Source: Thiosulfatimonas sediminis (GTDB taxonomy: Bacteria; Pseudomonadota; Gammaproteobacteria; Thiomicrospirales; Thiomicrospiraceae). From it: a DNA stretch of 64,000 nt. The stretch spans positions 1,302,001 to 1,366,000 of the forward strand of contig NZ_AP021889.1 of NCBI RefSeq assembly GCF_011398355.1, written 5' to 3'. This document shows, piece after piece, positions 3,585-61,079 of the stretch (its first letter is position 1; the number at the start of each line of letters is the position of its first letter). The notes under the pieces are model-generated. The model did not search any database. It saw only the letters and a list, made by a program, of their open reading frames with translations, and was not told the origin of the DNA. Both the position numbers and the translations under genes were made by a program.

Positions 3585-3604
3585 TTGAATTAACCGTCTA
3601 ATTC

Positions 3605-3642
3605 GACACAGAAAAAGTCCTCATTTAAACTTATTCTGTCTC
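3605..3642. repeat. Minimal copy of the dispersed inverted-repeat family (ends only)
   Basis: A 38-bp imperfect palindrome begins GACACAGAAAAAGTCC and ends with AAACTTATTCTGTCTC. Its right arm, read in reverse (GAGACAGAATAAG), matches the terminal repeats of the larger elements at 52647-52877 and 41538-41739. It looks like two element ends joined with almost no interior. Assignment is tentative because of its length. Confidence 0.4.
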
Positions 3643-3662
3643 TCTAATACGAATAATGCCAA

Positions 3663-9792: not shown

Positions 9793-9903
9793 TACAGCGA
9801 TGCTGGATAAGTCCCTACTGACTTTAGCGATGAATAAAAGGCGTAACAGCGAGGTTACTCTGGCAAATCTTGCTTGAAGTCAATTGGACATATTCTATTC
9901 TTC
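9793..9903. repeat. Short copy of the dispersed inverted-repeat family
   Basis: The left arm GGATAAGTCCCTACTGACTT and the reverse of the right arm, GAATATGTCCAATTGACTTC, form a clear terminal inverted repeat about 100 bp apart. The right arm also matches the end of the copy at 56040-56150 (GTCATTTGGACATATTCTGT). It lies between the rimO terminator and the nitroreductase gene. Confidence 0.6.
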
Positions 9904-9925
9904 ATTTGGTTGTTTGGAGTGGTCA

Positions 9926-16836: not shown

Positions 16837-16967
16837 GCCAGCGAAGGGCGCAAGAGCCACCTCTTTGCTATGTTCCTTATCCATCGTGATGGCTATGAGT
16901 GAGGGGCAAGCTTAGAATTTGTCGCTTGCAATTCTGCGCTGAAGTCAATGGGAATTGGTTCTGTCTC
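16837..16967 (-). repeat. Partial copy of the dispersed inverted-repeat family
   Basis: The right end, read in reverse, is GAGACAGAACCAATTCCCAT followed by TGACTTCAGCGC, matching the terminal repeat of other copies. The interior retains AAATTCTAAGCTTGC and a CATAGCC...GATGGAT hairpin, aligning with the copy at 52647-52877. The half containing the GCAAACAACCGCC module is missing. Confidence 0.6.
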
Positions 16968-36936: not shown

Positions 36937-37036
36937 GTGTCAATTCCCTTTGTTTTCAGCAAGGGGCTGCATAACGTTTTTACTCGTGGGTCAACTATAG
37001 CGGATGCCATCAATCGGTACAATATCGGATTCTACG
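36937..37036. repeat. Degenerate copy of the dispersed inverted-repeat family
   Basis: The left arm GTGTCAATTCCCTTTGTTTT followed by CAGCAAGGGGCTG aligns with the copy at 60899-61079. The right arm TCAATCGGTACAATATCGGA resembles the right arm of the copy at 9793-9903. The two arms are about 100 bp apart. The match is weaker than in other copies. Confidence 0.4.
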
Positions 37037-37125: not shown

Positions 37126-37136
37126 TCGTGAAAATT

Positions 37137-37225
37137 TTGTCGGAGTGCCTTTAGACATAGGCTGAGATCGCGCAAGCGGGATCCGTTGAACCTGATCTGG
37201 TTAGGACCAGCGAAGGGAACAAGTG
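37137..37225 (+). ncRNA. TPP riboswitch (THI element)
   Basis: The aptamer core is unmistakable: GGAGTGCC, then GGCTGAGA, then a variable hairpin (TCGCGCAAGCGGGA), then CCGTTGAACCTGATCTGG and GGACCAGCGAAGGGAA. It binds thiamin pyrophosphate and lowers expression of the thiC-led operon. A hairpin (ATGGC/GCCAT, 37227-37242) lies directly after it, and the thiC start is a further ~120 bases away. There is no clear U-tract terminator, so control at translation or through Rho is more likely. Confidence 0.95.
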
Positions 37226-37349
37226 TATGGCACTTTCGCCATGCAACACAAAACGAACAAGCCTGACGAATAAATCTTGGCTGAGTTTAGTTTTCAACAA
37301 TTTATCTCAAACTGTCTACTGAGCTTCTTCGCCTTTTTCGTTAATGTAA

Positions 37350-41494: not shown

Positions 41495-41537
41495 CTTTTA
41501 TATAAGAAAAAATAGGTATGATAGTCGAAAAGTTGAC

Positions 41538-41739
41538 GAGACATAGAACAGGTTCAAACGGCTTCACGCACAAAGAGTTTAAATGACCAAGGCGATTGTT
41601 TGCGCGCATATCTAGATTTGACAAAGCAAGAAAAACAGCGCAGTTAATTTTTCAAAGTTGGTATGAGATGGATTTGCAAGCCTAGAAATCGCACTCTGCA
41701 AGACCGTGCCGAAGTCAATATGGATTTACTCGGTGTCTC
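41538..41739 (-). repeat. Full-length copy of the dispersed inverted-repeat family
   Basis: The 202-bp element runs from GAGACATAGAAC to a right end whose reverse is GAGACACCGAGTAAATCC. Interior blocks align in order with the copy at 52647-52877: AAGGCGATTGTTTGC, AAGCAAGAAAAACAGCGC, ATGGATTTGCAAGC, CCTAGAAATCGC and TGCAAGACC. It sits between the thiamin operon terminator and the response-regulator gene and holds no credible gene. Confidence 0.65.
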
Positions 41740-41888
41740 ACCCGTGTTCAGTTATAAAAATTATAAGTAAAAAATATCAATAGAAGACACTGCTGTTCGA
41801 CTTGTGAATAAGCTAAAGTATGAATTGTTTAGTTTTTTATGTACTCGAAGAGTAAAACAGTTTGAGTGGCGAATAGGAGCCGTTTAAT
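41740..41888. other. AT-rich leader of the signalling cluster
   Basis: Between the repeat element and the response-regulator gene is an AT-rich stretch with ATTATAAGTAAAAAATATC. It probably contains the promoter, but no pair of consensus boxes is convincing. AGGAG at 41875-41879 is the ribosome site. Confidence 0.4.
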
Positions 41889-42521: not shown

Positions 42522-42791
42522 AGGCTAGCTAAAATGATTACTTCTGCATCGTGTGATTTTGCATGCTTAAGCTCACACCTAACGCAGTGTTTTTATGTCT
42601 TGATTTGACAATTTTTGCGTTAATAATCAACGGACTCGGGGAAGCGCTGAGAAAAATCAATCTGATTTAATTATAGATTTCTTAGCTACCTTTTTACTGA
42701 GAGGCTTATACCAAATACTGGCTTATTAAGTTTCTCATACGATAATATGTTTGTTTGGAAACAAAAACATGAAAAATAAAGGGTTGAATTG

Positions 42792-51278: not shown

Positions 51279-51417
51279 AAGTTTTGTTGTGTTTACTTTA
51301 ACTTACCAAAAATATGTGGCCTATTTTAAACCACTGCATCGTGCTTAGGGAGTGAATCTGGCATTATTCGTGATGCAAATGGTCAACAAAGCATGCTTAA
51401 AGAGGAAAATAAAACCG

Positions 51418-52650
51418 ATGAATAATTGGGCATTTAATTGGGTGCAAATTTTGGCACACAACAAAAAAGCGCTGTCTTGGCGTCTTGGGTTAATTTGGTT
51501 AGTTCTGTCTTACGGACTTTTGGATTTTGCTTGGACAAGTGTGACACCGATTATCGCTGCGCTGCTCTTAGCCACCGTTTTAATGAGCCTTGTCCTTGGA
51601 TGGATGGCGGATTCTTATAAAACCGCCGCGCTGCAGTTTGCGTTAAGTTGGCTTATTTTATGGGGGATATTTGCCGCTTTAGGTTGGCTGGGGTTGGCGC
51701 TTAACGAACAAGGGTTGTTGGCGTTATTGGTGGTGGTGACAATGTTTTCCGCCAATTTAATTCATCTGTTAAGCACCGTTCTTAGAGAAATGGCGCGCGG
51801 TCTTTATCAGTTTGATGCGGTCGCAGAGGCTTTGAAATTAAACTTCACACCGATTTTTTTATCCAATTTAACCACTTCGTTGGGATTTGTGTTTGCCGCT
51901 TGGTTGCATCCCGATTTTAGCCAGATGGCGTGGATTGTAACGCTCGGTGCACTGTTAAGTTTGATTTTGAGTATAAGCTTGTTTCCTTTGATTTTATTGA
52001 CATTTTTTTTAGAGTTTCGGGTTGGTAACAGTCGCGATCGCAATGCGTTTCGCGGCTGGATTGAGTGGTTAAAACAGCATCGCTATCTGCGTAAATACTT
52101 ATTAGGGTTTAGCCTTTTGCTAACCGCTGTTTTAGGTTGGTATTATCAAAATGTGTTGCTGAATGCCCAGTTGTTAACCATGCTCGGGTTATTTGCTGCT
52201 TTATTTATGCTGTATTGGCGTTCGATTAAAATGGTGTTATTTACTTTGTGGCTGACGCTGTTGGCGTGGTTACTGGGCATTGCATTGCAGAGTTTTTTGA
52301 TGGCACTTTGGCCGACATTTTGGGGACTCGGTTTTGATGCCGAATGGCTGCCGGTGTTATTGATGCTTAGCCTCGGCGTGATTATTGATGATGTGGTGCA
52401 TTTCTTCAGTCGCTATCAACGCGCACAGTTGACGATGTTTGCTAAAGGATTTGATGCGGTTGCATTTGCAATGGCCAGCGTGGCAAGACCAATTTGGATG
52501 AGTTCTTGGTTGTTGTTGGTCGCTATGCTGGTTTTGCTCAGTGCGCAGAGTGCGTTGGTGGTTGCGGCGGCGGCGTTACTCATGATGGCGATTATTATTG
52601 TGACCATCATGGTGCTGGTTTGGTTGCCCTTGTTACTGGTCGGTGACTAG
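51418..52650 (+). CDS. MMPL/RND-like membrane protein lacking porter domains
   Basis: This 410-residue protein has about twelve hydrophobic helices in two related halves. Each half has a family-like helix (MFSANLIHLLSTVLREM, LGVIIDDVVHFFSRYQRAQ) followed by FDAV and a run of Ser/Ala-rich helices. The second matches the GxxxDDxxHxxxRY motif of MMPL/RND exporters with its proton-relay Asp pair. The large periplasmic loops after the first helix of each half are absent. The start is uncertain: ATG 51418 has AGAGGA upstream; GTG 51352 is possible. The stop codon lies in the end of a repeat element. Confidence 0.7.
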   Translation: MNNWAFNWVQILAHNKKALSWRLGLIWLVLSYGLLDFAWTSVTPIIAALLLATVLMSLVLGWMADSYKTAALQFALSWLILWGIFAALGWLGLALNEQGLLALLVVVTMFSANLIHLLSTVLREMARGLYQFDAVAEALKLNFTPIFLSNLTTSLGFVFAAWLHPDFSQMAWIVTLGALLSLILSISLFPLILLTFFLEFRVGNSRDRNAFRGWIEWLKQHRYLRKYLLGFSLLLTAVLGWYYQNVLLNAQLLTMLGLFAALFMLYWRSIKMVLFTLWLTLLAWLLGIALQSFLMALWPTFWGLGFDAEWLPVLLMLSLGVIIDDVVHFFSRYQRAQLTMFAKGFDAVAFAMASVARPIWMSSWLLLVAMLVLLSAQSALVVAAAALLMMAIIIVTIMVLVWLPLLLVGD

Positions 52651-52877
52651 GCAGACACCGAATAAAGCCAAATGGCTTTAGACACAGAGCAATTTGGCTG
52701 AGCAAGGCGGTTGTTTGCATTCCTGTTTAGACTCGGGCAAAAATAAGCAACACAGTGCCGTCGCATTTTTCTATCCCTTTCATCCATAGCTTTGGCTATG
52801 GATTTGCAAGCGAGCCTAGAATTTGCGCCTTGTAAGACCTCGCTGGTCCTAATGGAACTTATTTTGTGTCTTCCTAG
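52647..52877 (-). repeat. Full-length copy of the dispersed inverted-repeat family
   Basis: The 231-bp element is bounded by CTAG on both sides. The left end is CTAGGCAGACACCGAATAA and the reverse of the right end is CTAGGAAGACACAAAATAA, 16 of 19 bases alike. The interior carries GCAAACAACCGCCTTGCTCA (reverse strand) shared with the copies at 56040 and 60899, and a hairpin CCATAGC/GCTATGG. The left CTAG supplies the stop codon TAG of the upstream membrane-protein gene. Confidence 0.7.
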
Positions 52878-55681: not shown

Positions 55682-56039
55682 AAAGTTCAGTCCTATAACA
55701 ATGATTGTATTTTGTTTATCTTTCTATTTTTTATTGTGTTGTTAGCGTCAGCCTAAATTAAGGATTGCGCTGACGGGTTGGAGTTATATCAAAGGGCTTT
55801 TTTTTTGAGTAATAGAAAAAATCAATGGCTTTTAGGTGCTGTTAAATATCATTAAAAGAAAATATTAACCCCTTTTATTCGCATGTGTGAAAAGTACATG
55901 CAAGCGTGAATAAGACGGGATTTCACAGTAGTAATCCAAATTTTTACTAATAGAAAATGCAGGTTTTGTTAATTAACAGGTAAATAATCTTTACCTCACT
56001 TTTTATGATGAAATTATCGTGTTAAGCGGTGAAAAACTC
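55682..56039. other. Divergent intergenic region
   Basis: This AT-rich region separates the carbonic anhydrase gene from the TRIC-type channel. It includes T-rich tracts near 55800 and AAAAGAAAATATTAA near 55855, but no gene or strong hairpin. It must contain the carbonic anhydrase promoter. Confidence 0.4.
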
Positions 56040-56150
56040 GATTGTGCTGTGCTGCTTGTTTTTGTCAGGTCTAAATATGACGGCAAACAACCGCCTTGCT
56101 CAGCCAAATTGTTCTGTGCCTGAAGTCATTTGGACATATTCTGTATCTTC
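56040..56150 (+). repeat. Half-length copy of the dispersed inverted-repeat family
   Basis: GCTGCTTGTTTTTGTC, then GCAAACAACCGCCTTGCTCA, then GCCAAATTGTTCTGTGCCTG and AAGTCATTTGGACATATTCT align closely with 60980-61078 and with the reverse of 52647-52760. The other half of the element is missing. It ends 54 bases before the TRIC-channel start. Confidence 0.7.
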
Positions 56151-60852: not shown

Positions 60853-60898
60853 TTTATCGCTGTTTTGTAAGTGATAAAAAAAGGCGTGTTTTGGCTAA

Positions 60899-61079
60899 GG
60901 AGGCGCAGAATTAAGTCCCAATTAGCTTCAGCGAGGGGCTGTTCTTGCAAGTCTTGCCCTTAGGCGCTTTGAACAATTTGACTGTATTGTGTTGCTTGTT
61001 TTTGTCAAGCAAGGCATGACTGCAAACAATCTCGCATTGCTCAGTCAAATTGTTCTGTGCCTAAAGCCATTTGGGCGCT
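60899..61079 (+). repeat. Near full-length copy of the dispersed inverted-repeat family
   Basis: The left end GGAGGCGCAGAATTAAGTCC is followed by CAATTAGCTTCAGCGAGG, matching left ends of other copies. The right half, TGTTGCTTGTTTTTGTC to GTTCTGTGCCTAAAGCCATT, matches 56040-56150 closely. The right end stops at the TAG stop codon of sppA and is shorter than in the 52647 copy. Confidence 0.65.

Follow-up and report, generated by a model that had tools for sequence, protein, structure and literature searches.

At the locus, an ORF (51352-52650) is followed directly by a gene-less repeat of 223 bp. The stop codon of the ORF is the TAG of a CTAG at 52647..52650, and an identical CTAG is present on the other side of the repeat. 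The repeat belongs to a family represented several times in the window, the stretch of 64,000 bp analysed here (C1:1302001-1366000), which is part of the genome G000, a single contig of 2,722,826 bp. The features of the family in the window are listed below, with E values from the covariance model R2, from R1 and from a sequence profile trained without any window copy.

3602..3645, no strand: minimal 44-bp copy, two terminal repeats facing each other, without either arm (found as terminal-repeat pair)
9798..9904, plus strand: strongly decayed, internally deleted copy (R2 E 0.0035; profile E 8.7e-5)
16841..16964, minus strand: truncated copy with one end and arm 1 (profile E 5.7e-19; R2 E 3e-8)
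41537..41740, minus strand: copy retaining both ends, with a deletion of most of arm 1 (profile E 4e-19 and 1.4e-9; R2 E 7e-16)
52647..52650, no strand: left target duplication CTAG (from the sequence, the ORF list and the identical flanks)
52651..52873, minus strand: near full-length copy of 223 bp with terminal stem and both arms, on which the sequence-only reading had focused (profile E 1.6e-40; R2 model positions 1-264, E 2e-14)
52874..52877, no strand: right target duplication CTAG (flanks identical)
56026..56150, plus strand: copy cut down to arm 2 and the right end (profile E 1e-32; R1 E 5e-33)
60899..61076, plus strand: copy lacking most of arm 1 and part of the right end (profile E 1.7e-30; R2 E 2e-23)

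The sequence-only reading had assigned eight segments of the window to one family, and seven of the eight hold. The segments 52647-52877, 41538-41739, 56040-56150, 60899-61079 and 16837-16967 were confirmed by the profile at the E values listed, while 9793-9903 was borne out more weakly. Segment 3605-3642 was not significant in the profile (E = 0.33), and stands as a pair of terminal repeats behind CTAA (3598-3601); three such pairs were found in the window and none in 100 dinucleotide shuffles. CTAA is also present on the left of the copy at 60899 (60895-60898). Comparison of the window with itself gave six significant pairs among the copies at 41538, 52647, 56040 and 60899. The mixed orientation of the copies and their variable length through loss of the interior had been described rightly, the inner arms being the parts lost. 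The ends of the 52647 copy, said to be alike at 16 of 19 positions, are so if CTAG is counted; without the target duplication they agree at 13 of 19. Segment 36937-37036 was rejected as a copy (profile E = 0.42), because the leader just upstream of a TPP riboswitch (37131-37235, 74.7 bits) is common to the sister genome G013, the orthologous leader there matching ~36980-37030 of the segment. A weak R2 match to arm 2 only (42526-42618, E = 0.03), outside the eight segments, is possibly one more decayed fragment.

Genome analysis of G000 showed the presence of further copies. The 52647 copy, used as a blastn query, gave 32 matches; the inverted end of the family, GGAGACACAGAATAAGTCC, with up to 3 mismatches, gave 76 matches, against none for the pattern read backwards; a model of arm 2 plus end gave 74. 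Merging of the matches listed yielded at least ~104 loci, approximately one per 26 kb, so that further copies do exist as expected, and the projection of hundreds per genome was an over-extrapolation. In the G000 sequence examined, 34 end pairs were present, and the elements range in size from 42 to 302 bp. No overlap with an ORF was detected at 72 of the 80 loci examined with their surroundings.

The elements are flanked by a 4-bp target, YTAR, found on the left in 39 and on the right in 36 of 51 element pairs, with a background of 1.7%. Identical 4-mers are present on both sides in 23 of the 51. All pairs in which both sides are non-palindromic YTAR (12 of 12) have direct repeats; for pairs with YTAR on both sides, permutation gave a mean of 7.8 against 20 observed. 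YTAR contains TAA and TAG, and the left CTAG at 52647 supplies the stop codon of the upstream ORF.

Across the genus, Thiomicrorhabdus on the evidence of the sister genomes, the end was counted 76 times in G000, 111 times in G013 (T. marina), 6 times in G011, 4 times in G043 and 0-2 times elsewhere; the G013 count is a lower bound, since several element matches in this genome lie at contig ends (C3, C9, C17, C30, C36, C38 and C44), where the repeat probably fragmented the assembly. When named genomes were scanned with the exact pattern, the repeat was seen in T. marina 6S2-11 only, apart from two lone matches in unrelated genomes. No copy was detected in the phages and viral contigs searched, and plasmids gave a single 64-bp match.

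Orthologous sites were compared in the sister genome G013 (taken as T. marina), contig C44 of which showed synteny with the window in the parts that were compared. As would be expected of mobile elements according to the sequence-only reading, copies are absent from orthologous sites: the intervals, all without the element in G013, comprise 85 bases in G013 versus 301 in G000 (copy 52651), 78 versus 237 (60899), 30 versus 138 (9798), 78 versus 208 (16837) and 82 versus 152 (3602). The count covers these five copies, 41537..41740 having no orthologous site and the interval of 56026..56150 being too diverged in G013. At the 60899 site, G013 contains an intact intrinsic terminator, the right half of which is missing from G000 after the insertion.

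An autonomous transposase with the same ends, the other expectation of that reading, is present in sister genomes, while G000 retains a broken remnant only. In G013 and G020, IS5-family transposase genes lie between the same ends as those of the element. The G013 locus L059 is an insertion sequence (IS) of 1183 bp with the ends of the element and the flanks CTAA/CTAG; it encodes a 315-aa DDE transposase with the domains PF01609 and PF05598, which matches the NCBIfam IS5 model NF033581 with 358.7 bits (cut-off 140). Its relatives are L071 (88%) and, in G020, the frameshifted L064. The closest named relative of the protein is the transposase of ISKpn26 (72% identical), an element with the ends GGAAGGTGCGAACAAG that sits in TTAA. 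The relic in G000 is a stretch of 122 aa with 71% identity, three stops and one decayed end. No intact partner transposase was found in G000, nor in G011, although the latter has copies. Similarity among the copies is 86% in G013, which has an intact IS, and 70% in G000, which has only the dead one; this points to an old, decaying family in G000. Mobilisation of the element by an IS5-type transposase may be inferred from the shared ends. An origin of the element by internal deletion of its partner IS is ruled out: only the terminal 18-22 bp are common to both, and the subterminal sequence differs.

The family has the testable features of a miniature inverted-repeat element (MITE) and of IS5-type targeting; it is neither a deletion derivative of IS5 nor a member of any known Rfam family. 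It has terminal inverted repeats and target duplications, is short, gene-less, multi-copy and dispersed, and is absent from orthologous sites. The MITE reading of the sequence alone is thus supported by further copies, empty sites, same-ended transposases and YTAR duplications. The 4-bp YTAR target and the IS5-type DDE transposase are both features of the IS5 family.

The IS5/ISKpn26 type (ends GGAAGGTGCGAATAAG, 4-bp YTAR-type target) is similar to the element in the kind of ends (GGA...GAAYAAG) and in the 4-bp target, and both the IS5 family and the element prefer intergenic, AT-rich sites; the element differs in being gene-less and in having only its last bases in common with the partner IS. 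The 4-bp duplication of IS5 has been printed as the consensus C[A/T]A[G/A] (PMC11677980). Correia/NEMIS repeats of Neisseria are gene-less intergenic inverted repeats of MITE nature with more than 100 copies and hairpin transcripts (PMC10969869). The element is likewise a gene-less intergenic inverted-repeat MITE with more than 100 copies, whereas Correia/NEMIS have different, TA-type termini, are limited to Neisseria and lack a two-armed core spread across a class. CIR repeats, known from Caulobacter and further alphaproteobacteria, consist of two long inverted repeats, that is, two arms with a linker, and are conserved between species (PMC2229807). The two-armed inverted-repeat design is common to CIR and the element, but CIR are ~110 bp long, have no end-to-end pairing, carry GANTC and have not been described with IS5-type ends. 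The QMITEs of Coxiella and the MITEs of Thiomargarita are gammaproteobacterial, palindromic and multi-copy (PMC5896051, PMC4853749); by their published descriptions, they are set apart from the element in sizes, ends and duplications. No published description of an equivalent element was found in a literature search, most subscription journals being outside its reach.

At full length, the element is a palindrome of 262-264 bp with two arms. Such copies fold, with z down to -11.9, so that the ends pair in a closed stem, followed by arm 1, a small hairpin and arm 2. Arm 2 is similar to arm 1 inverted, and many elements therefore match the model on the reverse complement as well. Shorter copies without arms, down to 42-44 bp, are present. 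RNAalifold detected almost no structure on the gapped alignment A2, and the pair counts given below rest instead on the fold of one full-length copy. In the full-length G013 copies L163, L164 and L090, an extra hairpin of ~36 bp (CGAAGAACTCGACGCCCGAAGGGGTAAGTCGAGAC) is present between the small hairpin and arm 2; it is perhaps a nested REP-like insertion.

In other Thiomicrorhabdus genomes, elements of 260-263 bp were found with the same interior and different ends (GGAACCTCTGATTGAATC, GGGCACCTCGAATAACCCC). A search of 369 gammaproteobacterial genomes with R2 gave matches, mostly full length, in 44 genomes representing 38 of 271 genera; their length is near-constant and the positions of their motifs are fixed, with AGGCG, CGCCC..GGG and CGCCTTG near positions 54, 126 and 204 and the core motif pair AAGGCG/CAACACCG, while the terminal repeats differ between lineages. 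Joint alignment across end types showed changes on both sides at 58 of 91 pairs and 249 double-change cells, versus 102 in shuffled and at most 52 in slid alignments; the aligned sequences form two main groups, so the double changes are not independent events. In alignment A5, double changes were found at 87 of the 91 pairs, a covariation that is discounted because this alignment was fitted to the model and includes both strands of many elements. It was checked independently with a profile of the interior sequence, containing neither ends nor structure, which recovered most of the R2 loci at the right place and none among reversed decoys.

In this genus the ends track the resident transposase, as is evident from L059. 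In G024 (L099) and G108 (L256), the same is suggested by transposase remnants that have the local type of ends. Among 15 genomes with GGA- or GGG-type ends, no DDE_Tnp_1 genes with local ends were seen in 12; this search, limited to the DDE_Tnp_1 family, was positive only in G108 (one end), and the G024 remnant came from an earlier search. Many of the class-wide copies (L215-L226, L229-L232) have a second kind of ends, of the TACTCC, TGCTCC and GTCCTGTC types. CTAG is often present at their flanks, a hint at a group of transposases distinct from that described above.

Taken together, the family is best read, with a probability of roughly 0.85, as non-autonomous IS5-type miniature elements with a two-armed core that is shared class-wide and carries differing ends. 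The IS5-family transposase, from an IS of ~1.18 kb as in the sister species, would have recognised the inverted ends of ~19 bp and integrated the element into 4-bp YTAR sites, which were duplicated in the process. Copies would have built up between genes, often beside stop codons and terminators, and presumably decayed after the loss of the transposase, of which G000 keeps its remnant. The cargo, a palindrome of 262-264 bp with fixed short motifs, is not part of the partner IS, and new lineages may arise when the core gains the ends of another IS. The conserved core would serve the mobility of the element itself, as a DNA hairpin or a protein-binding site. An extension of this reading, held tentatively and at slightly less than even odds, is that a single ancient non-coding cassette (~260 bp, with core motifs at fixed places) has been maintained across the gammaproteobacteria through repeated end swaps, with different resident transposases in each lineage and a core functional for efficient spread in one of these two forms. 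Bacterial MITEs are usually described species by species and explained as remnants of a single insertion sequence. In this family it is the interior that lasts longer than the ends: one core, with differing terminal repeats, is found in dozens of genera, a sign of some conserved feature in what is supposed to be a passive parasite. The system offers a testable route to how such elements acquire new transposases, and the covariance model is ready for annotating a repeat that is probably unlabelled in many genomes.

The strongest alternative, considered unlikely, is a plain selfish MITE with neutral arms, in which pairing would be maintained by palindrome correction (template switching) in replication, and the class-wide likeness would be due to vertical inheritance or to a recent transfer. 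Mutation by quasi-palindrome correction is known to occur, the G000 copies decay as DNA, and the arms are freely lost. On the other hand, the fixed motif positions and constant length in 38 genera are hard to explain without selection, given that the neutral copies of G000 are only 70% alike.

Improbable, by a further step, is a structured RNA or mRNA 3'-end element (a processing site or terminator, like NEMIS or ERIC), the arms of which would be kept by a function in the transcript, IS-mediated spread being incidental. Conserved structure with sequence turnover is the usual hint of RNA, and the very stable folds, the strong covariation and the location of several copies, including 16841..16964, between stop codon and terminator are in agreement with it. 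However, the arm mismatches in G000 comprise 49 G-U and 62 A-C, so that no selection at the RNA level is visible there and transcripts are not favoured; the G-U share of 0.63 in the class-wide set is biased by the choice of the better-scoring strand. The insertions are found between tandem (34), divergent (25) and convergent (13) genes alike, and the copies of 42-44 bp have no arms at all. The elements also gave no Rfam match at gathering scores, and nothing of note at E up to 1. The arm pairing is therefore better explained by a role at the DNA level, or by correction of palindromes as they are replicated, than by RNA, and the fixed motifs may serve the mobility of the element. Sub-threshold matches to the Rfam M23 sRNA lie inside the element at L229 1246-1293 and L231 1634-1681 (28 and 26 bits, gathering score 41); they reflect either chance or, perhaps, an earlier listing of one of the copies among the sRNAs.

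Scarcely credible is mobilisation of the family, as a REP-like element, by a single-strand (Y1/RAYT) transposase. In its hairpins and its position between genes, the family is reminiscent of REP and BIME repeats, but these are palindromes of 20-40 bp without duplication, whereas the element is 264 bp at full length, with clear inverted ends, 4-bp direct target duplications of a kind that REP-type movement is not known to produce, and DDE transposases that carry the same ends.

Two further observations concern copies in other genomes. In G043, a second MITE family (L111, L118, L122, L125) of 99-174 bp was found, with related ends GGAAACTCTGAATAAGTCC and TTAA flanks; its 174-bp copy has an arm-1-like interior. 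In G366, 5 bases separate a class-wide copy from a cobalamin riboswitch (L231 1312-1495 and 1501-1764).
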